A stretch of DNA of 64,000 nt from Chloranthus sessilifolius. Its lineage: Eukaryota > Streptophyta > Magnoliopsida > Chloranthales > Chloranthaceae. Location of the stretch: NCBI GenBank assembly GCA_021018995.1, contig CM037597.1:2679299-2743298 (forward strand), read 5' to 3'. Each line of letters opens with the position of its first letter. The first letter of the stretch is position 1. A program made the position numbers and the translations under genes. The notes under the pieces were generated by a model. It saw only the letters and a list, made by a program, of their open reading frames with translations. It was not told the origin of the DNA and searched no databases. Positions 22,847 through 63,835 of this stretch are shown here, piece by piece.

Positions 22847-22901
22847 TTATTAAAAATGGCTCTGAACTTTTGAAATATTACACCAAAACCATTATAGAAA
22901 G

Positions 22902-23577
22902 GGGAATTTCCAAGATCAATCCTATCAAATTCACCTTTTTCGTTAGAGACCCTATAGTTTTCATTTCCCATCAAGGATCAAAATTTCGGCCGAAATTATC
23001 GGTTTCGGTCCCCATCAAAATGATAACTATGGACCAAAATTGTTGTATGGGACCCAAATTTTTAGTTTTCGACCGAAATTTTGATCCTTGTTTCCCATAA
23101 TCGACCAGCATTAAGCCGAGCCAATTCCAACTAGCAGAAAAAGTCTCAAATGATCCTTCTTACACTTTTATCGTTGTACATGGTTTAAAATTTTTAAAAT
23201 TTATATATTTTTATATTTACACAATGTGAAGCAGCATCATTTTAAAAAAAAAAAGGTGATATCTCTTCTTTAACAAAAAAAAGGAAAGTTAAAGAGGCGA
23301 TAATGCCTTTTTCATATCAACCCTCGGCACCATCGATCTTTATATTGTGGCCTTTAAATCAAATGGCATAAATGTTGATTCACATTGTGTAAATATAAAG
23401 AAGTGCAATTTTTAAAAATTTAAACTATGCAAAATGATAAAAAGTGTAAGAAGGGGTATTTGAAACTTTTTGTGCTACTGAATCGCTTCACTTGAGCTAA
23501 TCGATTTAAGGAAAATGAAACTATAAGGTCTCTGATGGAAAAGGTGAATCTGATAGGGTCAATTCTGAAAATTTCCC
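22902..23577. mobile_element. Non-autonomous MULE related to the 35.3 kb element
   Basis: Its ends, 'gggaatttccaagatcaat' and the complement of 'aattctgaaaatttccc', continue into 'agagaccctatag' and its complement. These match the terminal repeats of the 8.1 kb MULE. No clear 9-bp TSD remains. The interior has no coding capacity and carries a nested family F MITE. Confidence 0.7.
22972..23090. mobile_element. Family F hAT MITE nested in a MULE (perfect TSD)
   Basis: This 119-bp element starts 'caaggatcaaaatttcgg' and ends 'gaccgaaattttgatccttg'. It is flanked by perfect 8-bp repeats tttcccat (22964-22971 and 23091-23098). It must have arrived after the surrounding MULE. Confidence 0.85.
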
Positions 23578-34689: not shown

Positions 34690-34930
34690 GTATATTGCTT
34701 GCGGAATTTCAATGGAATCTTGTCTAAAAGATGGTGTAAATTGCCAATTATGATAATTCTAAATATAAAGGTGAGATATCCTATATTTAAAGAGATATGA
34801 GATTTTTAAGGAACTATAGATAATCTTATCTAAAAGATCGTGCTAATTGCGAACTATGATAATTCTAAATATAAACCTGAGATATCTTATATTTAAGGAG
34901 GTGCAAGATTTTTAAGGAAGTATAGATAAT
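34690..34930. repeat. Direct duplication of about 115 bp near the Helitron 5' end
   Basis: 'aattgccaattatgataatt ... gagatatcctatattt ... gatttttaaggaactat' (about 34738-34822) is followed by a second copy (about 34850-34930). It lies within 400 bp of the Helitron 5' terminus. Confidence 0.65.
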
Positions 34931-35144: not shown

Positions 35145-35294
35145 TAGAGCTCTCGGCTGATACTTGAGCCATCTTGACCGATACCTGATACGTATCGACC
35201 GATATCAATACCACCTGGTATCGAGGTGGTATCAGTTCGTTTGGTCAAAATACCGATACGTATCGGTATCGGTCGATATTTGATACCATGGTGT
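35145..35294. repeat. Family E repeat at the MULE insertion site
   Basis: Motifs 'ccgatacctgatacgtatcg', 'gataccacctggtatcgagg' and 'tacgtatcggtatcggtcg' mark a family E copy. The 8.1 kb MULE begins ten bases after 'gataccatgg'. Confidence 0.6.
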
Positions 35295-35303
35295 CAAGTA
35301 ATT

Positions 35304-35400
35304 GGGAAATTTACCTGATCGACCCTGTCAGATACACCTTTTACGTCAGAGACCCTATATTTTCACCTTTACCCAAACCGACCCGCTACACGTCGAACTG
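35304..35400 (+). repeat. Left terminal inverted repeat of the MULE
   Basis: GGGAAATTTACCTGATCG, then 'gaccctgtcagatacacc', 'gtcagagaccctatatttt' and 'cacctttac' match the right end in inverted orientation nearly base for base for about 70 bp, with weaker similarity beyond. Confidence 0.92.
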
Positions 35401-35678
35401 TCGCCCGCCTTTAGGAAATGCCGAAATTACCCCCAATGTAATAAATAACCATCCTTTATTTAACTCTTTACCATTTACCTTTTTTATTTTTTACTTTTTC
35501 GTTCGAAGTCGGTGGAGAGACGATGTCGATTTGTAGTCACTGGCGTTCCGTTTTTCAATCTTCAAGCTATCAAATTTGTAAGTTAGAAATAAAATTATCT
35601 TCCATTTCTGTAGAGTTTTTTCTTCTTCTTTCATCGGTGTATATTTTGATATAATTTTTTAAGGTTACTTTAAATACA

Positions 35679-35800
35679 ATCAATATCGACCATATATAAA
35701 ATCGTTATCGACTGTATATAGAGTCGATATCGACTATATATACGGCCGATAACGATTGTATTTATAGCCGATATCGATTGTATTTATAGTCGATATCGAA
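35679..35800. repeat. 22-bp repeat array A of the MULE
   Basis: About six units, each 22 bp, of type 'gtcgatatcgactatatata'. The core is TCG-n4-CGA or a close variant, and AT-rich linkers keep the period exact. It lies between the left terminal repeat and the DUF1985 gene. Confidence 0.9.
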
Positions 35801-35939
35801 AATTTTAAGGACCACATCATTATCTCAACCTGATTATATATTACAGTTCATTTAACATTTAAACAATCCGTGTTAGTATGGGACTTAGTCCTTTCTTTTT
35901 TATTACAGTTCATTTCAACAAGCTGTTGCCAAATGTTCC

Positions 35940-36606
35940 CCTAGTACCATTTCGAATCTCTACGATACCGCTAGCCCAACTCGAAAGGAGTTGTTGAGAG
36001 CATTAGTTTTCGATGAAATATTTTAAATACCTAAGGGTGTGAGATTTTTTGGAGATATGGTCGATGCGATATTGACTTTTTGGGTTGAAAAAAATCACTT
36101 TCAAATTGGGAAGACTAATATCTATCTTCGGAAGTTGGACATTACATTGATACTGGGCTTTGTTGTAGTTAGCCCCCGAAAAGTATACCCCGTCCATTAA
36201 ACTATTGGAAGAACAAACCATTCGATACAAATATTTTCGTGGAACGCCTCCTGAGAAAATTCTCCTGTCTCATATAGATAATGCAATTTGGAGAGCGAAA
36301 AGTGATGACGACTTCGTAAAGTTATCTCTTTTATATGTGTTGTGTATATTTCTTTTTCCCGAGTCCCATCATTAGCTGGCGGAAGACCATATTGACCTCA
36401 TCGATGATGTCGAGAACTTCAATCGAACTTCGTGAGATCTCCACATGTACCATGACTTGATCGAGTATATAATAAAGTGCGCGACGAATATAAAGACTGT
36501 CGAGATGGATAAAGCCCTTAAGACATACAACACATATGGATGCATGTGTACTTCAATAGTGGACTTATGAGATGTTGCCAAATATCTCGCCTGTACGGAC
36601 AACCCT
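35940..36606 (+). pseudogene. DUF1985-like domain, decayed
   Basis: Conceptual pieces include 'DMVDAILTFWVEKNHFQIGK', 'NIYLRKLDITLILGFVVV' and, after a frame change, 'LLSHIDNAIWRAKSDDDFVK', then 'LIDDVENFNR' and 'MYHDLIEYI'. This order matches the DUF1985 domain found upstream of Ulp1-like proteases in plant MULEs. At least one frameshift (about 36195) and stops (for example in HH*LAEDH and NRTS*DLH) interrupt it. The domain name is from memory of the family and no search was run. Confidence 0.65.
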
Positions 36607-36786
36607 TAAGAACTATTTTTCACGATTATTAAAATGATCGAACAAGGTGCAATCAAGGATCAAATGCTACACTCACGAATAGATGTTGAACCAGCAAGGT
36701 ATGATGTCTATTAAATAATTCAAATTTATCAAGTCAAGGAGTAGAGAGATTCGATGCCGATTGAATAAAGGTACCAACTGCTCAAC

Positions 36787-37016
36787 GAGTCGATAATGAT
36801 TTCATCGAGAATCGATACCGATTCATTACAGAATCAATACCGATTCATTACAGAGTCGATGACAATCTATTACAAAGTCGATAACAATCTATTATAGAGT
36901 CGATAGCGATCTATTATAGAGTCGATAACGACTTCTTAATTAGTTGATAACAACTTCGTAAATAATCGATAATGACTTCGTAACTAGTCGATAACGACTT
37001 ATTAAAGAGTCGATAC
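36787..37016. repeat. 22-bp repeat array B of the MULE
   Basis: About ten contiguous units such as 'agtcgataacgacttcttaa' plus two bases, keeping the 22-bp period throughout. Variants caat for cgat and ttga for tcga look like CG-to-TG/CA decay. It separates the DUF1985 exon from the next coding block, an intron-like position. Confidence 0.92.
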
Positions 37017-37069
37017 CTTGCATTTAGAATATATTATTAATTTAATTTGTTATTTTTGGTGTTTCATTT

Positions 37070-38176
37070 TCTTTCAAAAGGTTTGTGCTCCCCTCGTACC
37101 TATTAGCTTTGAATTAGAGATATCCGTCTTAAAGGAATATCTACAGGGTCGAAAGGTGGTTGGGGGGAAGAGAAAAGAGGTTCATGAACCAGTTGAGAAA
37201 GCTGTGGAAGTTGTGCGATCGAAGAAGAAGAGAAATTACATTCCAGTAGAAAATATTGATGAGGAAGAATTTGACGTCCAATCGACGTCGGATGAAGAAT
37301 CGTCATCAGAAGAGGGCCCTATTCATGTAGAGCTGTCGAGAACTAGGGGGCCACGAAGGAGAGCCCAGCCACAAAAGGGAGCCTAGTTGCACCGACCTCC
37401 TCCAATGAGTCTTTGTTGAGGAGGATCGACGGTCCGGTGATGGAGAACTTGAAGCTCACCCAAAGAGTAAGCCATTTGGAGGGAGAGAATGTGGTCATCG
37501 TGACACATTGTGCCTCCGTAGAGAAACTATGTAACTCTTTGAATGAGCGGCTCAATTCAAGGGATGTAGAGTTGCAGAAGATGATTCACTACAACATGTT
37601 GGTCAGAAAGGGCCAGAGAAATCTGAAAGAACTTTTTGAAAATATTTTAGAAGCGACACCTAAGGTATGTGTTGTAACATAGTTTGTATAAGTGAATACA
37701 ATTCCAGCCAGATTTCTAATTCTAATAATGTTATAATTAATGTTCAGGATGCCGCTATTTCGAAGCTGATATCGAAGGTGTATAGCCCAACCTTCGATAA
37801 GGGACCATCTCCTCCCATGCATGAGGATCCTCCCACCTAAAAGGGACCATCTCCTCCCATGCATGAGGATCCTCCCACGGATGAGGTGACAGCAACTGTT
37901 GACGGGCGACTTGAGTCTCAAGTCGATAAGGGTCCAGCTAGTGAAGAGCAAACCTCATCCCAATTGTCCCAGCAACAAATTGACCCTCACTTAAGACCTA
38001 GGCAAGAAAAACCCGTGAAATCAATTGCCATCAAACCTAGGACACATCGAAGGGGAGCAATGGCAAAAAAACCTGTAACGGAGAAGGCCACTGAAGGACC
38101 GATGGTTGATGCAACTATTGAGCCTGGACCTATGGCTGATGCTACTGCTAAGCTGACAGCGGAGCAAAATACCTGA
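37070..38176 (+). pseudogene. MULE middle exons: acidic/basic linker and coiled coil
   Basis: 37018-37386 encodes a Lys/Arg- and Glu/Ser-rich linker (GKRKEVHEPVEKAVEVVRSKK..., then DEEFDVQSTSDEESSSEE). 37413-37663 encodes a heptad-rich segment (LTQRVSHLEGENVVIVTH...ELFENILEATPK) ending at a donor 'aag|gtatgt'. 37749-38176 follows 'tgttcag' and carries a tandem 38-bp duplication ('gggaccatctcctcccatgc' twice, 37800-37880) with an in-frame TAA between copies. This is typical of linkers between DUF1985 and Ulp1 in these elements. It has no independent function that I recognise. Confidence 0.55.
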
Positions 38177-38471
38177 TGGACCTGTGGAACAAGCCTGAAT
38201 CTGAGGACGAGTAAGTCATTCTTTCAAAGTATGATAATTAGTTAGTAGTAGTTTATCCTAATTTATTATTTTTTACGAAAATTAGTTACGTTGGTCGTTA
38301 TTTATGCAGCACCTACGTAAGCACCGTCGGTGATTATACGCTGGTGGTACAGTCTTTAAGATGTTTGGCGGGCATGGAGTACTTTGATAATATTATAAGT
38401 AAAGTAACCTTAGAACTCATATAATTTAATTATTTCATTATTGCTACTGTAAGCATCAAATAGACTGTATA

Positions 38472-38725
38472 AATTCGTCGACGAGTCTATACAGAGTCGA
38501 TATCGACTCTATAACAAATCGATATCGGTTCTTCCTACAGTCGTTATCGACTCTATAAGTAATCGTCATCGATTCGTTATATAGTCGTTATCGACTCTAT
38601 AATGAATCGATATCGATTTCCTCTGGAGTCGGCATTGATTGTGTATCGAGTCGATGACGATTACTTATATAGTCGATAACGACTCTATTTCGAGTCGTCA
38701 ATGACCATATACATTGAAGGACCGG
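38472..38725. repeat. 22-bp repeat array C of the MULE
   Basis: About ten or eleven units such as 'agtcgttatcgactctataa' and 'aatcgatatcgatttcctct', at an exact 22-bp step. It separates the linker exons from the protease exons. Confidence 0.92.
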
Positions 38726-38783
38726 TGACGACTCTTTTGAATGTTACTTATTTCCTTAACTGTAACTGCATTGGTTTCAAATA

Positions 38784-39663
38784 ATGGGTGCCTACCTGAG
38801 ACTCTTGGACGTAATTGATGACGCTATTAATCTTGATCGAAAGGACAAATACTTTCTTATGTGCCCTACCATTCTAACCTACATGAGCTTTGAAATAAAC
38901 GATTTCAATAAGTTCCTTCTTACTGAAAAATTGTACAATGAATTATTCGAGATACAAATCAAATGGTGGGCTGCCCATAAACTCGAAGAGAACCAAGGCA
39001 AGAAGTTGCTACAAAATTTCTTCTTCAATTAGTTTCAGAATCTGTAGGCTCACGATTGCAGCACAGTATGCTTCCAACATCTTTATAATTTTTTCAATCA
39101 TATTCTTTGAGATTATATTTTTTTTTATAGATATTTTTTCCAATTCATTCACAACAACCATGACACTGGGCGCTTGTAATTGTGAAGGTACTCAAATGAT
39201 CGATATTGGTCGTCGACCCTATTTTTAATAGTCCCTCTAAGAAAAGATATTCAGACCAATTGAAAACGTTGGTATGATATTTTGCTTAGCATATCTTTTA
39301 TCAATGTTAGCTTAGCATATCTGACATTTCTCTATTTCGAAATAGACACAATACCTTCCCGCGATTTTATATTCATACGGTGATTGTATTGCACTGAACG
39401 TGAAGACCTATCCTTGGTCATCTAGTGATTGTCGATACAAAGGTCTTCCCTGACAGACCAATTCGAGTGATTGTGGGGTGTTTGTGCTGAAGTATGTGGA
39501 GTACTTCATGCCGGAGAAGAAATTTGACTTTGCACAATCAGATATGAGTAGGTTCAGGGCAAAAATTAGCCATGCCTTGGTTAAATACACTGGCAATAGA
39601 GGAGTGAAATTGGAGCAGGACCCTGGTGAAGAAGTACCAGTGGTTCCGTCCTCAAAAGAGTAA
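38784..39663 (+). pseudogene. Ulp1/C48-type cysteine protease domain, decayed
   Basis: Blocks are in order: an N-terminal part (38784-39032, LDVIDDAINLDRKDKYF...), then HWALVIV at 39164 with its catalytic His, then VVDP about 50 bp later with the Asp, then SSDCGVFVLKYVEYF with the catalytic Cys at 39472-39474, and a tail FDFAQSDMSRFRAKI ending TAA at 39661-39663 region. This is the C48 deSUMOylase-like fold carried by many plant MULEs. A TGA directly before the His codon (39161-39163) and other breaks show it is a pseudogene, although the triad codons survive. Confidence 0.75.
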
Positions 39664-39782
39664 TGTAAATGAAACATTTTTAATGTAAATTGCATTCTGT
39701 ACATTCGAATTTTAGTTGTGTACATTCAAATTTCAATTGTTACTGTTAATTATTTAACCACAACTAAATTAAGTTTTCAATG

Positions 39783-39938
39783 AAGTCGCCATCGACTGTA
39801 TATACAGTTGCCATCGACTATATAAATAGTCATTGTCGACTTTATATATAGTCGCTATCGACTTTACATATAATCGTCATCGACTGTCTATCCAATCGTC
39901 AACGACTTTATATACAGTCGCTAACGGCTCATTTACAT
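39783..39938. repeat. 22-bp repeat array D of the MULE
   Basis: About seven units such as 'agtcgccatcgactgtatat' and 'aatcgtcaacgactttatat'. It lies between the 3' ends of the two convergent genes. Confidence 0.9.
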
Positions 39939-40089
39939 AATCCATGATCCATATTTATGAGCAAGTATACAGTCTAAAATTACAACTATTATGAAACAAA
40001 AAATATCAGGATTCTGAGTTTCTGAGAAAATATACATTGTCTCGTTTATATTCCATCTATCACTATTAAAAATATACACTATCAACCCA

Positions 40090-42140
40090 TTGGTCTCACT
40101 GCTGTACAACTCCTGCGATTGTTACCATACTTATTTCCTTGCATACGAGCAAGGCAAGCCATGAATGTGCCAATGACGGCAAGTACACGTCTTGTGTTCC
40201 AAGTCTACGTAATGAATGAAAATTTTGAAATTGACTTGAAATTGATCACGCCCGTATGGTTGGGCTCTCTTTCTATCGGCCCATTGCAGCACCTTCTTTA
40301 TGTGCTCGTCTGCTTTCGGGTAGAGGAGGGTGGTCTATTTCTCAAATATTTGTCAGCGCTTTTGAAAATGATTGGCGACTTTCTCTCTAGTAGTTCTGAT
40401 TAAGTCGATAATTGGTCTCTCTTGAGCTATCTTTAGTACGCTATTCAAGCTTTTAACATTATTCGTCGTCAGAGAATCATACTGTCTTCCTTTCATATAT
40501 ACGTGTATTCAATGCTTCGGGTCTATTTTCAAAATATACTCTACGGCCCGAGGATCAGCAACATCTTTTTTCATTTTGTTAATAAAATAATTAAATCTCT
40601 CTACTGAATATGCAAGCGCAGCGCTCCATCATAGACCCTTCACATTATTTTTGGGATACTTGTGTACCAAATTTTATGTCATATGTCGCATACAGTAGTT
40701 GTGATATGTATTAGGGAAGCTATGCTTCACCGCCTTTATTAAACCCTTCGACCTATCCATGATAATAATGAAATCTTCGGTAAACTCACCGATCACGAAC
40801 ACACCTACCCGTTTAAGAAACCACATCCACGTATCTTCTTATTCTCTTCTTCTAACTCGACGATGGCAAATACTAACGGTAATATATGGTCATTACCGTC
40901 TTACGTTGATGCAATAAGTAGGATCTCTTCGAAACATCCCCATAGGTGTGTGTCATCTACAAGTAATATGCGACGAAGCGTATTGCGGTAGCTTCCGCTG
41001 CACGGGCCAAAACTCTAAAAAAATCTTTAGAATTTATCGTCAAGCGTAAGTTGAAAGGATGTTTATATATTAGGATCTACTCTCTCCATCTCCTTCACGT
41101 AGGCCGATAGATCCACAAATTGTCCTTCTTAACTACCTCTAATATCATTAAGGGTAAGCTCTTTCCTCCTCCAAGCCTTAACATATGAGATTTACATATT
41201 ATAAGCTTTTGCAATATCAAATATTATCGACGCCGGTGTGTAGTCGAATCCTTTCATAAGTTTCTCCCATACATAGTTGGATACGAAGGAGATTATTGCA
41301 TTACGGTAACCGTGCTATCCGATCTTAGCGGCCCCGCATATATGAGTACTATTGAATGTCTTAATTTTGAAAGAGTCGAGTCCAGTCAATTTAGACTCAT
41401 GTATTCGCCATGAACAATCGTGTTTGTAGCATCCGGCTATCACTCGATAACTAGCGGATTTTAAAGGTCGAATTTGGAAGTTTTTCTCCACCGCGTACTC
41501 TTTCAATGCTTTTTGAAATGTTTGTTTGTGTCTAAAGATCTCTCAAACTTTAAACGTCCAATTTCGGTATTCAGTTTCCACCTCTTCATCGGAGGAGTTG
41601 TCCGATGTCTCTGACACTTCATAATCTCCGTCTACTAGGGGATTATCAATGTCTCTCACAAAAAATTTTGGATCCTCTTTTATAAACTCATCTGGTTCAC
41701 TTTCATATGCTTCTTCTAAAATATCTTCATTAGTGGGTTGAGGATGACTACGCCATTCACTAACGGTGTTCTCAGGTGGTTGACTAGATCCTTCACCGAA
41801 GGGGTTTTGATGTGATTAATTAGATCTTTCACCGAAGAGGTTCTAGCGTGGTTGACTAAGCCCTTCATCGAAGGGGTGCTCATATGTATGGACAAGGGGT
41901 TGAGCTTCTTCGATAATCCCATCGATGATATGGTAAAACATAATTTATGAGCAATCAAGTTGTCCATTCATCGGGAAAGATATGACTGAAATCGTCGGTA
42001 TCCACCACCCTTTCTGAAGTGTAGTCTAACCCTTGACTACATTGTTGTGACCCATGCATATATTTTAGTGGGTTATCATACAATTTAACAGGAACATTGT
42101 TTAAATCAATAGTTGCTTTCCTTACAGACATGTTCGTCAT
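40090..42140 (-). pseudogene. MuDR-type MULE transposase, decayed
   Basis: The gene starts ATG at 42140 (MTNMSVRKATIDLNNVPVK...). A 36-bp tandem repeat (SVKDLVNHLRTP-type, about 41755-41900) and an acidic segment follow. The MuDR N-terminal DNA-binding domain lies at 41315-41506 (EYAVEKNFQIRPLKS...CSWRIHESKL...FNSTHIC). FVDLSAYVKEMERVDPN lies near 41100. Downstream DDE-region sequence is traceable only in pieces, with many stops and frameshifts, so the transposase is inactive. As in the family, the product would cut and move the element by its terminal repeats. Confidence 0.8.
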
Positions 42141-42659
42141 AATATAGTTGTCATCGCCTAACGGGACGGTATCATATATAGTTCTATCCTCCTTAAACTA
42201 ACATGACTAAAATGAAAGGTTACTCACAAAAGCAGTCTCGCCAAGAGCTACTTGTTCAGCTTCTACTCAGAAGGATGACGATTCCTTAATAATGAATACC
42301 TTTATGATGTCCACTCCGGATTTATAAAATGTAAATAGGGTGGCCAAATCATTAGAATCTAAAATGTCAGCAACTATAAGGGTATTCACTATCTTCATAT
42401 TGAACTTTATGAAAATTGTTTCATCTACCCACGTAAAATTGACAGCAGACTTTCGTCTTATAAATTATTCATAAGAAATACCTGTTGAAATGTTAATAAC
42501 CCCCTGCCGGCCACCTTCATACAAGCCAGCATCGCCTACAAGAGGGCCATCATAGTGACAGAAAAGAAAAATTTTCACTTCCGTTATCGTCTATTTAAAA
42601 ATGAAAAGGAAGAGGTCATAAGACTGATGACACAAAAAAAAGAAGATGATTGTTAACAC

Positions 42660-42912
42660 TTTATCGACTGTTTATATAATCGATATCGACTATATTTACT
42701 ATCGTTATCGACTCTATATACAGTCGATACAATCGATTTCGACTGTATATAGAGTTGATAACGATTATGTTTACAATCGATATTGACTGTATATAGAGTT
42801 GATAATGATTACAGTTACAATCGATATCGACTGTTTATACAATCGATATCAACTGTATATAAAGTCGATAACGATTATATTTACAATCGATATCAGCTGT
42901 TTAAAAAATTGA
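42660..42912. repeat. 22-bp repeat array E of the MULE
   Basis: About eleven units, for example 'aatcgatatcgactatattt' and 'agttgataacgattatgttt'. One unit is cut short (agtcgatac at 42722-42730). It lies in the promoter-proximal gap between the transposase start and the right terminal repeat. Confidence 0.9.
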
Positions 42913-43310
42913 TCAAGAAATAAAATCTTTCTTTTACTACATCATTAAGAAACCTTAATAAACTAAAAATGGGGACCAATAAACTTAAATTATTTTTTAT
43001 ACTGCACCATTAAGAGACCTTAACAACCTAACAAACTAACAAACTGAAAATAAGGTTTAAGTAGGATACCTCACGTCGCAACGGCAAAGTGCAGAGTCTT
43101 CTTTTCACAATGGTGAAATGCAGGGGTTTTTTCTCCTAAGCCTCTGTTTCTTCTTCGAGATAGCAGATTGGAACAGATTAGACTAAGAAAAAAGACGTCG
43201 TTATCTGACCCACCTCTAACTTTTTAGCAGATTAAAATAAGGAAGAGGATGTTTTTATGGGTTAAAGAAAGTTATAGAAGGGAGTAATTTGGACTTTTTA
43301 CTCTCCTTAT

Positions 43311-43410
43311 GGTCGGCTAGGCTTGGAGCTGGTCGATTTGAGTAAAGGTGAAAATATAGGGTCTCTGACGTAAAACATGTATCTGACAGGGTCGATCAGA
43401 TAAATTTCCC
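43311..43410 (-). repeat. Right terminal inverted repeat of the MULE
   Basis: It is the complement of the left end (see 35304-35400), including 'gagtaaaggtgaaaata' and 'agggtctctgacgtaaaac'. It ends 'aaatttccc' directly before the target duplication. Confidence 0.92.
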
Positions 43411-43419
43411 CAAGTAATT

Positions 43420-44810: not shown

Positions 44811-45629
44811 ATGCCACACAGAAACCCCAATAGCAATCCAGAGACCAGTTCTCATACAAGCATTCTCAGAAGATCTCCCAGATTTCTCTCTCAAGAAAAA
44901 TCCCCTGAAAACGAAGACAGAAACAACAAGGCCAAAAAGGCCAATTCGAGGAAGAAGAAGCAGAACCCACGAAATGTAGGAACAGATTCAACAGAAGACA
45001 TTTCTCTGATCAAAACCCACGAAGGGTATCTTCATAGCGATAGGAGAAGATCTCTTAGATCATATAGCGTTGCGAAAACCAACCATAACGAGGTAGGTGC
45101 CGGGTCGAAAAATCCGAAAAGATCTGATAATGGGCGCAGAAAATCACTGCGGTTTTCAATTACGAAACCAAACTTTGACGAAATCACAAAGAAAACCGAA
45201 AATGAAAGCCCTGATCGACACAAAGGAGAGATCACCGGGTCTGAAAATCCTGAAAGATCTAATAATGGGCACAGACGATCACCGCCGTTTTCAGTTACGA
45301 AACCATACTTTGATGAAATCGGAAAGAAAACCGGAACCGAAAACCCTGATGAATTGAGAAATCCGAAGGAGAAGGCGAGTAAATGTTCGTTAAAGATGGG
45401 AATTAATGGGTCTGAGGAGTTAAAGGGCAGTTCTGTAATTTCTGCGGTGGCGCTGAATGGAGGAGAAAAGAAGAGGAGAAAAAGAGAAGGTGGGGTTGAG
45501 AGGAGAACTGGAGCATGTGAAGAAGGGTGCAGTTTCGGAGGGTGGACCAAAGAGCAAGAAACGGCATTGCAGAGAGCTTACTTTTCGGCAAAGCCTTCCC
45601 CTCATTTCTGGAAGAAGGTTTCTAAATTG
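44811..45629 (+). CDS. SANT protein gene, exon 1
   Basis: 273 codons: basic N-terminal region, two or three tandem RRKSLRF/HRRSPPF units, a KKRRKREGGVERR basic patch, and the first two helices of the SANT repeat. The exon stops after Leu273 at a GT donor preceding a pyrimidine-rich stretch. Confidence 0.88.
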
Positions 45630-48112: not shown

Positions 48113-51100
48113 TCACCCATCTTTTTAAAACATGCTGGCTGGTTGAATAATTTCAACAAACAAGTCATAGGCATCATGCTAGCAACACTAGCATGATCGG
48201 ATAGATAAATCCATCATGGTTGATTGATACATGAATACATTTGGAATGCTAAAAATCACAAGACAACACTAGCATGATAGGATATGATGCAATCACACAT
48301 AGTTTCGATTATAATATTATAGAATTATAATTCATTAAATACATTTAGAATATACTTACATGATTAGAATCATTAAAGAGATGGCCCTATTTCTGATCTC
48401 ATTTCATGAACCAAGATTATCACTATCTCATGGTGATCACGAAACTATGACTTACACCGATTTTTGACTTTTGTTTTTATGATAAAATCATCTGATAGTG
48501 GTCGGGAAACACATTTAAAATGGATTATCGCCTATCAAGAAAAAATTTAGGAGATCAAGAAACACAGTTAGGAATATCTTGTATGAGATAATGATGATAA
48601 AATTATCTTATTGTTCTCTTCGTATTTGATTTTTATTAAAGAAAAAGAAATTTTTTTTATGATCAGGAACCCATCTTGAAACATGAAGTTTGAATTATAT
48701 ACAACATATCTGGGAGAAATGGGCCTAGAGATTTAGCTTGGAGAGGGCACCTTGCAGAGAAGATACATTTGGAGAGAATGCTCTCAAGTCTAAGCCCAAA
48801 TTCTGTTTCTTCTTGCATTCAACACCTATCTTTCCAGCGAGAGTTTATAAAAAAACGCAAGCCTGCGCCCGAGTTTTTAAGTGAAGAGAATTAAAGCAGG
48901 ATAAATTTAGGTAAGAATAGCATTTATCTCGCTTTAATTTAGATTAGTTTTTTAAATTTAGCTAAATTTAATTTGAATGACCTTAATGTCCCCAAACATC
49001 TCCTTCGTACAAAATATAATTTAAATGAACTAAAAATTCCTTTAAATGCTCTTTTGAAGGGTTACCAAACGGGCCCCAATCTTTCCTAAAACATAAGATA
49101 TGCATCATAGGATACATATCTTCTTTATCAATCCTCGATATTCTCTATTACCCTCCTGGTATTGCTTGTTCCTTCTAATAAGGAACGTTCAATTGTTTAC
49201 ATTTAATGCTGCCCCTTGATCACCTGATTGAATGGTTGATGCATCAAAAAAGCGTTCATTATACTATTAGTGGTCACGATTCCACTGTGAAGTCCATCAC
49301 AGTTGCATGCTGCACTTCTCAAAGTATGTTGGAGCAGATGGCCCACTCGATCAGATCTATCTTGATCTCTGCCAGGAGAAATCAAAGATGAATCGTGCGA
49401 GGTAAGTGTTGTTGGAGAAGTCTTTAATAAAGACGATATGAGATCATGGAGCTATGACGATGAGGATGATGGAAGGGTTAAAGAGGTGGATGGGTTAGCG
49501 GTTGATGATTAGATCGTGGTATCAGAGTTATTGTTGGCTCAGATCTGCCATCATGCCGGCCATGGTATTGGGTCCCACTTCTTGGAACCTTCTCCTTATT
49601 GCATGATCTTGGCATTTGCTTTATAACATCTCCTTTGACTATAGTGTGAGAATGTTGCTGCAACCAACCTCACAACCAACAATATCTAAATCCAGCATAG
49701 AGGGTGAGTACCAGGCTCTCTCAGCCATAAGTGTCAAGGTTCAATGGCTTTGATACCATGCGAAATTCCAAGATACTACATCTTGAATGATTTTTCTGTA
49801 TTCCCAATAAGAGGAGAAGCCTCTTTAAATAGAGGTGAATATATCCAATTAAGATCTTAAGAAATCTTAATAATTCAAAATATGTCATAAAATATTTCTA
49901 AGATTTTAATCTATCCTTTATTTTTCCTTAAACATAATATATGCATCATAGGATGCGTATCTTTCTTATCATTTTTAAATACTCTATATTAACTTAAGCC
50001 ATTAGAACTTGAAACCCATCAAGAAAACTCATGTAATTTTAGTTTCTATCTTCCATATGCTGGTCATTAGATGTGGAAACCCATTGAGGAGTCTTTATAA
50101 GGTTATTTATTTGGTATTAGGAGCTCAGGACTTTGCACTAAGGCTGGTGCTTGGATTATAGTACATATGTGGCTGAGGTGTACGTCGATTCAGATTGCTC
50201 ATATGGCAGAAGTTTGCAAACTCAAAATCACTTTAATCAAAAAATTCTAGCTGTTTGATCAATGTAAATTTTCATTTAAGATATAGAACATTGCCCATGT
50301 TCAATATAGTTGTTCACGTATAAGCTTTTGTAATCTGTTTATCTCGCAAATGGTTAAAATTGATTGTTCTATCCAGTTTTTGGGTTGAAGCCAATTTCCC
50401 AAACTCCATCTTAAGACACAAGTTTTTTGTAGGTGATCATATCTATAGCGATCTAATTTTTTGGTTGACCTTTACGCTTCCTCTAAACTTTCTTGTGATG
50501 CTTCAAATGGCTAAGGCACCATTCAATATTTGGGTTGAAACCAATTTCCCAGGCTCCACCTTCAGACATAAGTTTTTTGTAGGTGATCATAATCTGTAGT
50601 GATCTAATTTTTTGGTTGACCCTAACGCTTCCTCTAAACTTTCTTGTGATGCTTCAAATAGCTAATGCACCGTTCATTTTTTTATGTTTGATTGTGATCT
50701 TTTCTGCCATGTTCTAGTATTTGGTTTACTTCCATCCCTCCCAAAGTCCCAATTTCCATTGAATGCCGTCTTTAGATAAAATTAAGACAGGCAGGCAGCT
50801 CATAAAAAAAGGGAAGAAGAAGAAGAGGAAGAGCCGAAGAGGAAGAGGAGGGGGAGGTCCCATTACTCAGTGGAGTCTTATTACGAAGTAATTCAAAGGA
50901 ATTGGTTTCCAGAAGTAATTAAAAGGAATTGGAACACTGTTGGAGGCTTACTTCTTAGATGGAAAAAGCCTCCAAATATAGTTACGAGTGAACTTTTGAT
51001 AGAAATTCGTTGAGAAATCTTGGAGCCACTGGGATTGGATATTATTAAGGACAACTAAGGAGAGTGTGTTATGGTGTTCTCAAGTCTTGTGTGTTTCAGA

Positions 51101-54100
51101 GAATGCTAAAGTGAAAGGTAAGGCATTAATAGAGGTTGCTAAAATCATACCCAACTTGGAAGTAGATTTGTTTATGGTAGGAGGTGATTCTTTTAGATGT
51201 TTGGAGTGGGTTGTGGGCATCAAGAAGTACATGGATGCTAGCCTATAATATTGACGAGAATATTATATTCGAGCAAAACTTTGCAGACCAGTGACATTGC
51301 AGCATGGTATCGAAACTCGCCCAATTCCAATGCGTATTGGTTTCGTCGCGAACCGATACCACCCCGATACGTGTATCGGGGTGGTATTGGTATCAAGAAG
51401 TACATGGATGCTAGCCTATAATATTGACGAGAACATTATATTGGAGCAAAACTTTGCAGACTAGTGACATTGCAGCATGGTATCAAAACTCGCCCGATAC
51501 CGATACATATCTGTTTCGTTGATAACCCATACTGATACCACCTCGATACAGGTATCAGTATCAATATCGGTATCGGACTAATACGGGTCAGTATCGGCCG
51601 ATACTCCCTCTGTATCAGCTGATACAATTACTCTTTTTCTTTTTTTTTGCTTTTTCAAAAAAAAAAAAAAAAAAAAAATTGGCCGATACATATCGGTTCA
51701 AGATGGATCGATACCCGATACCAATACCAAGTTTGATACATTGCATTACAACCTATGGTTGGCTATTGACATTGCAGTCTATGTTGAAAGGTGTTAATAA
51801 ACAATGCAGCTTTCATAGACTTTATTTACGCATTTATGTCTTATTATATGTTATCTAGTCTTGGAAAAAGGAAATACCTCAATATGCTTTTGACGAGTTT
51901 CATTTCTTATTGTGAAAATTGATGTATCCGAATACAAATATTCTTTCACATTAACCTTTGATTTATTATATATTTTTCCATTTATCCATTTGACATATTC
52001 AATTTCTACACTTACCAATGAAAAGATGTTTATGTTAAAGAAATTATTCTATATTTATTTATTTATTATTCTATATTCTATATTTATTTATTACAAGTAT
52101 TTTTCTTTTTCCACAATTCATATCTTAAATCATGGGAAAGGTGTAAAATCTTTCTTGCCACTATTAAATTTGGAAGATCGGTTGCCTAGATTTCTATGCA
52201 AGAAGGCCAGTTACCTAGATTTGGTTTTCAATTTCATGGGAAGGGTTTTTTTCCTTTTCTTAATATAATCTAAAATTATCAATTAAAAAGAAATAGCCCA
52301 GACAAAATGGCTCACCTTAGGCCTAAGATAAAACCACCAATCCCACTTTTTGTTCACGTGGTCGACTTTTTTTTGGCTTAAACATCTTATAATGATCACT
52401 CCGCCAAAAATAAATGCTCATAAGTTGGAAGATTGGTTGCCTAGATTTCTATCTAAGAAGGCCAGTTACCTAGATTTTGTTTTCAATTTCACGGGAAGGG
52501 TTTTTTTCCTTTCTTAATATAATCTAAAATTATCAATTAAAAAGAAATAACCCAGACAAAATGGCTCACCTTAGGCCTAAGATAAAACCACCAATCCCAC
52601 GTGGCAGACTTTTTTTGGCTTAAACATCTTACAATGATCACTCCGCCAAAACTAAATGCTCATAAGAGGGTCAAACTAGTCAATTTGGGAAGTATAATTT
52701 GGGTCATTACTCATATCTAACATAGGACCATATTAAAGTTCTTGCATAAATGGCCTAAAATGTTCTGCTACTTAGATTCGTGAAAACTGTGTGCCACATG
52801 GCACCAAATAGCTTAAAAGTGCGTATTAAAAAAAAGGGTTAAAAGTGACACAGTGAGGTCTTTATCGTAGGCCCCAAGGTGGGGAGAGTCAAACTGATTT
52901 CAATTTGATTTGGTGGACTGGTGTTCCATGTCCTAGATACATCCTGTAGCTTTGCATCACAAACTTCGGACTGATTTATACAGAAAGGAAAAATTAACAA
53001 GATTGCCTCTTTATTTAGTGGCGCATAACCGCCCCAATTTTAGCCAAGCGGCATATCCTTTTAGCAATCGAATTCATTAAAGTGGTAGCTCATATTGGAA
53101 GCTACCATAGACCCAAATATTACACTCATTGGAAAATTTTAACAATATGATAGTTGTGCATATTTTTTGAAAGGTTGATTAGATAGTTTCAAAGCTCTTA
53201 TAAGCTTTTTGGCATAAAAGTGGGACCTCATAGCCCTACTCGGTGTACATGTAGTCAGTGTTGTTTGACTTTAACTTGGAGTTTGAATTGTAGTTTGACT
53301 CTAACTGGCAATGGCCCAGTTACATTCAAATTCTATATAAGGCTAGTTTCTCTTAGATTAGAAGTAGGATTTGTGTCTTCTATATAAAGGGAAAGCTTTT
53401 AGCCAAATTAGAGAGTTGAGAGATATCATTGCAAAGCTTTGGAAAACTAGTGTAGGGTTTTGTGGACAGCTTTGGTGAGGCATGAGTGTTCTTGTATTCT
53501 TGTGTGATCATCAATATAGTGGACTATCACTACCCGTGGACGTAGGCATATTGCCGAACCACGTAAATATTGTCTCTTGTGTGTTTGTGATAATATTCTT
53601 TTGTTTTTGCATTCTTATTTCATAGTTCATCATGAGATCGTTGGTTAGTTTGTAAGCTTCTGCGCAACATATTGGTATCAGAGAGAGGTTTCTATTCTAC
53701 AATCAGAGATGGCATCGAAGTCCGCAAAAGTTTCGAACGCGAGGTTCGAGGTTGAGAAATTTGACGGGAAGATCAATTTCGGCTTGTGGCAAGTACAAGT
53801 CCGTGGTATCTTGATTCAACAAGGGTTGCACAAGGCATTAAAAGGGCTTTCGAGTAAGCCGGCGAATATGTCCGATGGTGATTGGAAAGAATTCAAACTT
53901 CAGGCGTGTAGTATAATTCCACTATGTCTAGCAAAGGAGATTACGTACAATGTAGCGGGAGAACTCGGCGGCTTCGCTATGAGCCAAATTGTAGAGTCTC
54001 TACATGATGAAATCTCTGACGAGTCATCCATATATCAAGAAGCAACTATACAAGTTGCACATGAAGGCAGGTACTTCTCTCAACAAACATCTTAATGAAT

Positions 54101-57100
54101 TCAATAAAATAATATCTGAATTATTAAATGTTGGAAAAAAGGTTAAAGATGAAGACAAAGAACTATTGCTTTTGTCTTCCCTCCCCGATTCCTATGAGCA
54201 TCTGGTTAGTACGCTGCTCTATGGAAATGATACTATTGAACTGGAGTCGGTTACAACGGCATTGCTTTGTAACGACATGAGAAAGAAAGGTTCAGATAGT
54301 GATACACAAGCAGATGATTTGTTGGTTAGAGGGAGAGCAGAGGACTGTAAATCCGAAAGGGGTGGATCAAAGTTCAGATCTAAATCTAAAAATAGAAAGA
54401 CAGTAGAATGCTACAAGTGTCACGAAAAGGGTCACATCAGAAGACATTGTCCACAGTTACAAACAAAGAAGGATGATGCTCAGGATAAGAAGCAAAAATG
54501 GGTCGTTGATGAGGCTGGTATAGTCGAACAAGAACTGGTTCGCATCTTATAAAGAAGTGAATGGTGGAACGGTTTTGATGGGTAACATATAGCCTGTAAA
54601 ACAGTTGGAAATAGGAGTATCAGAATAAAGATGCACGATGGGGTTGTGAAAACATTGATCGATGTATGCCATGTTCCGGAACTGAAAAAGAATATCGCTT
54701 GGAATTTTGAAGGTGACAAAGGGATCTCTGGTTGTGATGAAAACAAAAAAGGTTGGGAACCTTTACTTTCTATCAGGGAGTACAGTGATATGTGGAGCAA
54801 CAGTATCTACATCAGATGATAGTGGTTTGTTCTCTACACAGTTATGGCACATGCGCACACTGGACTTTATACATTCAGATGTATGGGGGCCTTCAAAGGT
54901 TCCTTCTAAAGGTGGTATCAGGTACTTTGTCTCTTTCATCGATGATTACTCTCGGTATATATGGATCTACATGATGAAGAGTAAGGATGAGGTGTTGAAA
55001 ATCTTCAAGAGGTAAAAGATATTATTTGAGAACCAGACTGAAAGGAGGGTCAAGCGGTTGAGAACTGATAATGGTGGTGAGTACACCAATGGACAGTTCT
55101 AAGAGTTCTGTGAAGAGAAACGATATTGCTAAGCACTTCACAGTGAGAAATACACCGCAACAGAATGGGGTAGAAGAACGTATGAACCAAACTCTACTTG
55201 AAAAGGCAAGATGTATGTTATCCAATGCGGGATTGGGTAGAGAGTTCTGGGCCAAGGCAGTGAGTACAACGTGCTATCTAGTAAACATATCGCCGTCTAC
55301 AGCAGTAGAGTGCAAGAATCCGATTGAGATGTGGTCAGGGAGGCCTGCAGATTACATTGCATTGAGGATTTTTGGTTGCACAACTTATTATCATGTCAAA
55401 GATAGTAAAATTGACCCAAGAGCTAAGAAAGCGATTTTCTTAGGGTATGCAAATGACATGAAAGGATACAGGCTATGGTGTCCTGAGTAGAATAAGGTTG
55501 TGATCAACAGAGATGTGACCTTTGATGAATCTGTTATGCGAACTTTTAGTAAACAAATCATGAAAATTGGAGAAGAGGTGGCAGAAGATCAGTTTGAGGT
55601 GGAGTTAGAAACTCCTACGGCTATTACACCAGAGGAAAGTTTAGAAACAATACTGAGAGAGCCAGAACAATCCTTAGCAGGTGGAAGGCCCAAAAGGAAT
55701 GTTAGAGTACCAATTTGCTACTGTTACGAGGATATAGTTGTCTACGCATTGATGTTGGATGGCAATGGGTCATTTTCATTTAAGGATGTAATCAGTGGTA
55801 GATTTGCACGAGAATGAAAGACTGCAATGGGTGAAGAGATGGATTCTTTTTACAAGAATCAAACTTGGGAACTGATAGAGTTACCTAAGGGAAAGAGAGT
55901 GATTGGGTACAAGTGGGTTTATAAGAAAAAAGAGGGTTCCTCGAAAAGTAGTGGTGCAAGGTACAAAGCACGGTTGGTAGCAAAGGGATATCACTTCGTA
56001 CGAGAAGTAATCGAAGATGGTGAATATCTTTGAAGAAGGTGAGTACGAAGGACAATCCTACGGATATGATGACAAATGTGGTACTGGTGGTCAAGATAAA
56101 ACATTGTTTGGATTTGATCAATGCTCAACAGGTTTGAGCGCCCTCGGGGTGCTGGTGGCAACGACAATATGAGCATAGTGATAATCGAAAGAAAGAGTAT
56201 ATGGTCAAACTTAGAGCCACGTGGAGAATTGTTGTTTGACTCTAACTTGGAGTTTGAATTGTAGTTGGACTCTAACTTGGAGATTGGCTCTAACCTGGAG
56301 TTTGAATTGTAGTTTGACTCTAACTGGTAATGGTCCAGTTACATTCATACTCTACATAAGGCTAGTTTCTCTTATATTAAAAGTAGGATTTGTATCTTCC
56401 ATATAAAGGGAAAGCTCTTGGCCAAATTAGAGAGTTGAGAGATATCATTGTAAAGCTTTGGGAAACCGGTGTAGGGTTTTGAGGAGAGCTTTGGTGAGGT
56501 TTGAGTGTTCTTGTATTCTTGTGTGATCATCAATATAGTGGATTATCGCTGCCCTTGGACGTAGGCATATTGTCAAACCGCGTAAATATTGTCTCATGTG
56601 TGTTTATGATTGATTTTCTTCTGTTTTTGCGTCGTTATTTCATCGTTCATCATGAGATCGTTGGTTAGTTTGTGAGCTTCCGCGCAATAGTCAGCAGACT
56701 GTTTTTACACAAAAACAAAGATATTAGTTCCTTATACAAAACCTCATCTGAGAACGCGAAAAATGAATAGGCAAATTGGCAATTAGTCAAGATGCTGAAG
56801 AAAACTCCCAATGGACACACACTAAAATTGTGGGCTTTATTGCATTTTTGTTAATATTTTTTTTTATATTTTTAATGAAAACTAAAGATATTTTTACGTA
56901 ATTATTTTTACATGAGTGGCTTTACTAATATAGATTTGTTAACATGACATATGAATGTGAGACATCTTCCTAAGATTGGTCCATTGCTATTATAACTCGT
57001 TTATACAAATGCAATTATATCTTAGAGCTATAATGTTAGTTTTTTTCCGATAAAAAAAATCATGTTAGTTTTTTTTTATGGGTAAGCTGGGATAATGGTT

Positions 57101-62793: not shown

Positions 62794-63220
62794 GGGAAAT
62801 TTCCCAAATCGGCCCTATCAGATTCACCTTTTCCGCCAGAGACCATATATTTTCACCTTTCACCTAATTAACCAGCTCCAAGCCTAGCCGTTGCCCGCCT
62901 TTATGAAATGGTGAAATTACTCCCAAGGTAACAAATACTCGTAAAAATTTCAAATCATTACTGTTTTACCTTTTTAGTATTTACTTTTCGTTCGAAGTCG
63001 GTGGAAGACAGAGTCATTTCAAAGTCGGTGACACTCGATTATTCAATCTTCAAGCTACCAAATTTATAAGTTAGAAATCAAATTATCTTTCATTACTGTA
63101 GAATTTTATCTTCTTCTTTCGACGGTCTATATTTTGAATTAATATTTTTTATTTTCTTATAATTACACAGCGATATCGGCTGTTAAAAAGTCGGCATCGA
63201 CTAAAAACATAAAAAATATA
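62794..63220 (+). mobile_element. Left-end fragment of the 8.1 kb MULE family
   Basis: From 'gggaaatttccc' through 'gccagagaccatatatttt', 'ttcgttcgaagtcggtgg' and 'caagctaccaaatttataag' it follows 35304-35690. It ends with two units of the 22-bp array (cgatatcggctg and agtcggcatcgac, 63170-63202). The rest of the element is missing. Confidence 0.85.
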
Positions 63221-63602: not shown

Positions 63603-63835
63603 GGTATAAAAAATCACCCAATGCCAATATGTATCGGCCTGATATGTATCAGTATCCCAACTCGGGTATCGAATACTGTATCGGCCTGATACATATTGGT
63701 ATCCCAACTCGGCTATCGAATACCGTATCGGCCTGATACATATTGGTATCCCAACTCGGCTATCGAATACCGTATCGGTTGATACGTATCAAGTATCGTC
63801 GATACGCCCCGCCGAGACGTGATTTTTTAAAAATA
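63603..63835. repeat. Family E MITE with a 47-bp tandem repeat
   Basis: It starts 'ccaaggtataaaaaatcac', the family E end. 'gatacatattggtatcccaa' with 'ctcggctatcgaataccg' repeats three times at a 47-bp step (63648-63785). The right end is not resolved. Confidence 0.7.

Follow-up and report, generated by a model that had tools for sequence, protein, structure and literature searches.

Five arrays of a 22-bp CpG-containing unit in the non-coding gaps of a decayed Ulp1-type Mutator-like element of Chloranthus sessilifolius: candidate self-recognition sites

The VANC21 protein binds a short motif repeated in tandem arrays, which are found in introns and upstream of the transposase gene; besides introns, its target regions take in non-coding sequence between genes, at the termini and upstream of the transposase (PMC5735166). 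According to the accessible parts of another study, motif density affects the localisation of VANC21, and loss of methylation follows localisation (PMC10398659). In the available portion of a 2026 review, some VANDAL transposons are described as carrying a VANC gene with an Ulp1 domain, which acts on the non-coding motifs of related elements (PMC13317346). Here we describe a decayed Mutator-like element (MULE) with both ends present, located at 35304-43410 of a 64-kb stretch of Chloranthus sessilifolius DNA (GenBank assembly GCA_021018995.1, contig CM037597.1, positions 2,679,299 to 2,743,298 of the forward strand; hereafter the window). This element contains an Ulp1-type gene, and its large non-coding gaps are occupied by five arrays of a 22-bp unit. 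From our analysis, these arrays are probably groups of sites bound by one of the element's own proteins, most likely that of the Ulp1-type gene, and would function like VANC targets.

The five arrays are listed below, by position in the window; TIR stands for terminal inverted repeat.

35678-35809, no strand assigned: array 1, 6 units of 22 bp, between the TIR and the first gene
36788-37029, no strand assigned: array 2, 11 units, the last very degenerate, in a coding gap that is probably an intron (acceptor-like AG at 37079-37080, judged by eye)
38473-38714, no strand assigned: array 3, 11 units, probably intronic and preceded by a donor-like GT at 38404
39784-39937, no strand assigned: array 4, 7 units, where the two genes converge at their 3' ends
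42656-42906, no strand assigned: array 5, 11 units, upstream of the open pieces of the transposase gene, with a 9-bp insertion before 42731

All five were found where a first-pass annotation of this DNA had placed them, and its estimate of roughly 45 units became 46 units in register. The register was set by hand, and an off-register motif at 38720 (2 mismatches) was excluded. The same annotation had described an exact repeat with a strict 22-bp period. The period was largely confirmed, with 22 bp in 40 of 41 steps and 31 bp in the remaining one, at the 9-bp insertion of array 5, but the unit sequence is inexact, since 215 of 1012 unit positions deviate from the consensus of the array concerned. 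Each unit is made of a 14-bp dyad core with two CpGs, for which the consensus is ARTCGN4CGAYT, and an 8-bp AT-rich linker. Twenty units match this consensus exactly, 14 have one mismatch and 10 have two (44 of the 46 units with two mismatches at most), while three and four mismatches occur in one unit each. An 11-bp sub-period was also detected: identity reached 0.44, 0.69, 0.45 and 0.69 at lags of 11, 22, 33 and 44 bp, compared with a mean of 0.25 and a maximum of 0.32 at other lags (computed without the first three units of array 5). A tandem-repeat scan reported 44-bp rows in arrays 1, 2, 3 and 5.

The motif is strongly concentrated in the arrays. Of the 21 exact matches in the window, 20 fall within arrays; shuffled sequences (n=100) gave a mean of 0.11 and a maximum of 1. 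When one mismatch was allowed, 40 matches were found in the window, 34 of them in the arrays, for 3.8 expected. The lone exact motif outside the arrays belongs to another, truncated member of this MULE family. A third, shorter relative was also identified.

62794-63202, plus strand: second, truncated family copy with the 5' TIR, the leader and two array units, 76% identical over 412 bp
22901-23577, no strand assigned: 677-bp element with related TIRs in opposite orientation (TIR matches of 81% and 82% over 62-63 bp)

The truncated copy matches the first 410 bp of the element. Its two units, at 63168 (3 mismatches) and 63189 (exact), are 21 bp apart and occupy the place of array 1. The two array-bearing copies thus share array-1 units, and array 1 was therefore probably present in the family before these copies diverged. 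Short derivatives of the family can lack arrays, as seen at 22901-23577. No exact duplication of 6-11 bp was found at the ends of this short element.

A common host satellite, or a transcription-factor site, could in principle have been captured by the element. This explanation is very improbable, as the single exact match outside the element within the 64 kb belongs to a family copy, and no further tandem-repeat row in the window shows the 22-bp array unit. A pattern scan of viral contigs, which are hardly likely to include plant DNA, gave 0 matches.

We then consider how variation is distributed along the unit. The difference between arrays was 0.18 for the eight fixed core columns, 0.42 for the centre and 0.53 for the linker. 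Within arrays, the linker was more variable than the core in five out of five, which points to a protein-binding site, and in arrays 3 and 4 the centre clearly exceeded the core in variability. Column variability in one array was correlated with that in the others (mean rho 0.36, P 0.0005 by permutation; rho 0.28 without the end units), and this correlation is independent of the core mask. A rank test of core versus rest gave P 0.006, with the mask position lowest among 22 cyclic positions; this test is partly circular because the mask had been chosen, in the first-pass annotation, from the same data. These comparisons support, although not beyond doubt, the existence of a functional core shared by the arrays. 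CpG retention was considered as a possible trace of past hypomethylation: the observed/expected ratio was 2.35 to 3.88 in the arrays, but the transposase region, at 0.99, also exceeded the flanks (0.69 and 0.61). Covariation of the R and Y positions of the dyad was looked for and rejected: they were complementary in 19 of 42 pairs within units and in 18 of 39 pairs across linkers (P 0.90 and 0.87 versus shuffled), the counts leaving aside the 31-bp step and pairs that involve other letters.

The arrays might instead be neutral minisatellites, in which a 22-bp (perhaps originally 11-bp) unit expanded by slippage, was copied among the gaps and was tolerated only where coding was not disturbed. 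The 44-bp rows are consistent with ordinary duplication of unit pairs. However, neutral drift does not readily account for columns that change unequally, and in a similar way across arrays, or for one core common to five separate gaps while the spacers differ. Moreover, although CpG columns should mutate most readily, those of the core had changed with about the same frequency as the four fixed A/T columns (20/184 vs 16/184). Weighing these points together with those given below on the period and the centre of the unit, we consider a neutral origin unlikely.

The organisation of the element in which the arrays are embedded is as follows.

35295-35303, no strand assigned: left copy of the 9-bp target-site duplication, the same 9-mer as at 43411
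35304-35390, plus strand: 5' TIR, 87 bp, 92% complementary to 43324-43410
35889-36714, plus strand: decayed N-terminal coding region (limits approximate), with open pieces in two frames, interrupted by stops
37081-38210, plus strand: middle coding blocks of the Ulp1-type gene (limits approximate), open pieces, charged and of low complexity
38766-39663, plus strand: decayed region with the Ulp1/Peptidase_C48 catalytic domain (PF02902)
40131-42590, minus strand: decayed MULE transposase (DBD_Tnp_Mut, MULE and SWIM), from domain matches and 6 homologues
43324-43410, minus strand: 3' TIR, pairing with 35304-35390
43411-43419, no strand assigned: right copy of the target-site duplication, an exact match to the left copy

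The hallmarks of a MULE are thus all present at 35304-43410: a MULE-type transposase, an exact 9-bp target-site duplication (a 9-mer that occurs 5 times altogether in the window) and 87-bp TIRs. The two genes are convergent, with the Ulp1/C48 gene on the plus strand and the MULE transposase on the minus strand, and both are interrupted by stops and frame changes. The PF02902 domain was recognised with an E-value of 3.4e-18 on joined pieces, and of 1.6e-8, 1.8e-9 and 1.3e-5 on pieces or single frames, with single pieces also exceeding the cut-off. Within the middle coding blocks, a canonical-looking intron was noted at 37665-37747, its splice-like sites being judged by eye. The low-complexity middle of this gene also contains a perfect 42-bp tandem duplication (1.9 copies) at 37799-37878. 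In the transposase, PF03108 (4.1e-12), PF10551 (5.3e-8) and PF04434 (5.7e-6) were matched on minus-strand pieces, all above the cut-off. Six transposase homologues could be aligned to the element, of which the 4 with organism names are Vigna proteins (25-28% identity). The homologue alignment reaches 41743, and the transposase above about 41815 was assigned by open pieces alone; the outermost N-terminal piece had no domain match in the profile search, and the start of the gene is putative.

The arrays are found on the upstream side of each gene, in the space between the genes and in gaps of the coding sequence. None lies in a mapped coding block, which bears out, as far as coding could be mapped, the first-pass statement that they never enter coding sequence. 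Arrays 2 and 3 are probably intronic. The positions of array 5, upstream of the open pieces of the transposase, and of array 1, between the TIR and the first gene, would also suit sites that bind the transposase, or host factors as enhancer or subterminal sites, and that serve transposition or transcription, not anti-silencing. Subterminal repeat arrays to which transposon proteins bind are known in other plant transposons. However, three of the five arrays lie inside the element, in gaps of the coding sequence or where the two genes converge, and there they have no obvious use in end recognition, and neither TIR arm contains the motif at 0 or 1 mismatch. Such a function is in our opinion quite unlikely.

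Binding by a protein of the element acting as VANC does finds parallels in the described systems. As in the targets of VANDAL21 and VANDAL6 (Hosaka 2017, PMC5735166), a short motif is densely repeated in tandem in non-coding parts of a MULE, its units evolve jointly by tandem duplication, and it is largely confined to the element, which for the present MULE applies to 64 kb. The motifs themselves differ. Those of VANC21 and VANC6 are non-palindromic 8-9-mers without CpG, whereas the present motif is a 14-bp dyad with two CpGs repeated at a 22-bp step; likewise, VANDAL21 motifs are arrayed in a single orientation, while the present core is a dyad (PMC5735166). The element also resembles the Kaonashi (KIU) MULEs, which, in the accessible parts of the sources, likewise possess an Ulp1-domain second gene; the orientation of this gene, opposite to the transposase, is that of the KI-MULEs (PMC13317346, PMC2528002, PMC6117577). 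The same partial sources report Ulp1-carrying MULEs from Arabidopsis, melon, rice and grapevine, including, in melon and grapevine, TIR-bearing ones like the present element; in those parts, motif arrays like the present ones are not described for Ulp1 MULEs outside Arabidopsis (PMC13317346, PMC2528002, PMC6117577).

Several observations weigh against VANC-like self-recognition. The first group concerns the identity of the element and of its second gene. The element had been annotated at first pass as a DUF1985/Ulp1 MULE; a MULE with an Ulp1-type gene was indeed recovered (PF02902, PF10551, PF03108, PF04434), but DUF1985 was not detected. Neither DUF1985 nor DUF287 gave a match at E up to 10 in a profile search of the N-terminal region covering the N-terminal pieces, three read-through frames and joined pieces; as the gene is badly decayed and HMMER filters discard weak matches, the DUF1985 label is unconfirmed rather than disproved. 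The sole match of this region was to an unrelated family, MCD_N, below threshold (E 0.12 and 0.14). In two protein-database searches, none of the candidates scored (8000 in a capped set, and 815) proved to be a homologue of the second gene, and the comparison of this gene with solved structures returned nothing usable (best E 0.14). Degenerate TIRs are given as a VANDAL feature in the accessible part of one source (PMC10398659), whereas those of the present element are clear (87 bp, 92%); TIRs are nevertheless present in some members of the VANDAL clade according to the available part of another (PMC6446971), and degenerate TIRs are therefore no strict criterion of the group. A likeness of the motif to that of VANC6 or VANC21 was rejected, being not above column-permuted controls (P 0.89 and 1.0). 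The VANC motif differs from family to family, and a motif match is not strictly defining for VANDAL or VANC.

The second group concerns the arrays themselves. In arrays 1 and 2, the variability of the four centre columns does not exceed that of the core, as neutral minisatellites would allow, and in array 5 it does so barely. For the correlation of column variability, P was below 0.05 in only 3 of 10 array pairs. Among the array CpGs that have changed, 18 of 20 became TG or CA, a pattern that at least intermittent methylation would produce. The short derivative at 22901-23577 has no array and no motif at 0 or 1 mismatch. Finally, the first-pass annotation had taken the constant period as a sign of selection for one face of the helix. 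This is weak evidence, because the transposase of this element has a similarly low proportion of indels to substitutions: the arrays show 1 indel for 215 differences, and the aligned transposase (1383 bp, 11 stop codons) shows 1 frame change for about 310 implied substitutions, a rough control in which stops were converted to substitutions at a chosen ts/tv of 2 and indels whose length is divisible by three go unseen. Selection on the helical period was therefore rejected as proven, and the constant period needs no selection under a neutral origin. Of the self-recognition system that had been proposed by analogy with VANC, the non-coding arrays, the Ulp1-type gene, the correlated column variability and the VANC21-like layout are supported; the period argument and DUF1985 did not find support.

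If the arrays are targets of this kind, the following scheme can be proposed. A sequence-specific protein, encoded by the element itself and most likely by its Ulp1-type second gene, would bind the array sites. The 22-bp step would place these sites on one face of the helix and favour cooperative binding. Dense binding over all the large non-coding gaps would mark copies of the element's own family only. The bound protein would then strip silencing marks, resulting in loss of DNA methylation, and the transposase gene, once freed from silencing, could be expressed. In a more elaborate variant, which is rather doubtful, the arrays would be an anti-silencing target beyond the known VANC motifs: a CpG dyad placed every two helical turns would be read by a dimeric Ulp1-type protein, the sites would sense CpG methylation, and the whole would behave as a bistable, self-reinforcing switch.

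The general principle, as well as Ulp1-carrying VANC genes, is already published. In work on anti-silencing by eudicot VANC proteins (Sasaki 2022, EMBO J), specificity is reportedly set by motif sequence, density and helical periodicity. VANC proteins are also said there to gain or lose DUF1985, DUF287 and Ulp1, which would cover the present case almost wholly. An Ulp1 MULE that combines clear TIRs with a CpG dyad repeated every 22 bp was not met in the open-licence literature, which leaves out that main 2022 VANC paper, and we make no claim of an unreported type. Were VANC-like self-recognition true of this element, the VANC-type arms race, in which a transposon tags and un-silences only itself, would extend to a MULE with clear TIRs. 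The target would also be a very regular one (46 units, 20 of them with the exact dyad consensus), making the geometry of binding easy to test. The presence of CpGs in the recognition core, absent from the printed VANC21 and VANC6 motifs, raises the question of whether such proteins read methylation besides sequence.

Some other repeats were noted in the window. The segment at 35179-35303, which adjoins the MULE insertion, is similar to 51300-51571 (two pieces, 74-78%) and, over 26 bp only, to a GTATCGG-rich tandem repeat at 63631-63789 (region 63621-63798). Two-copy tandem duplications of 106, 135 and 151 bp are found at 34716-34930, 45100-45350 and 50379-50676. A decayed Copia-type LTR retrotransposon lies at 53995-55490, with gag and SH3-like domains above the cut-off and integrase below it.

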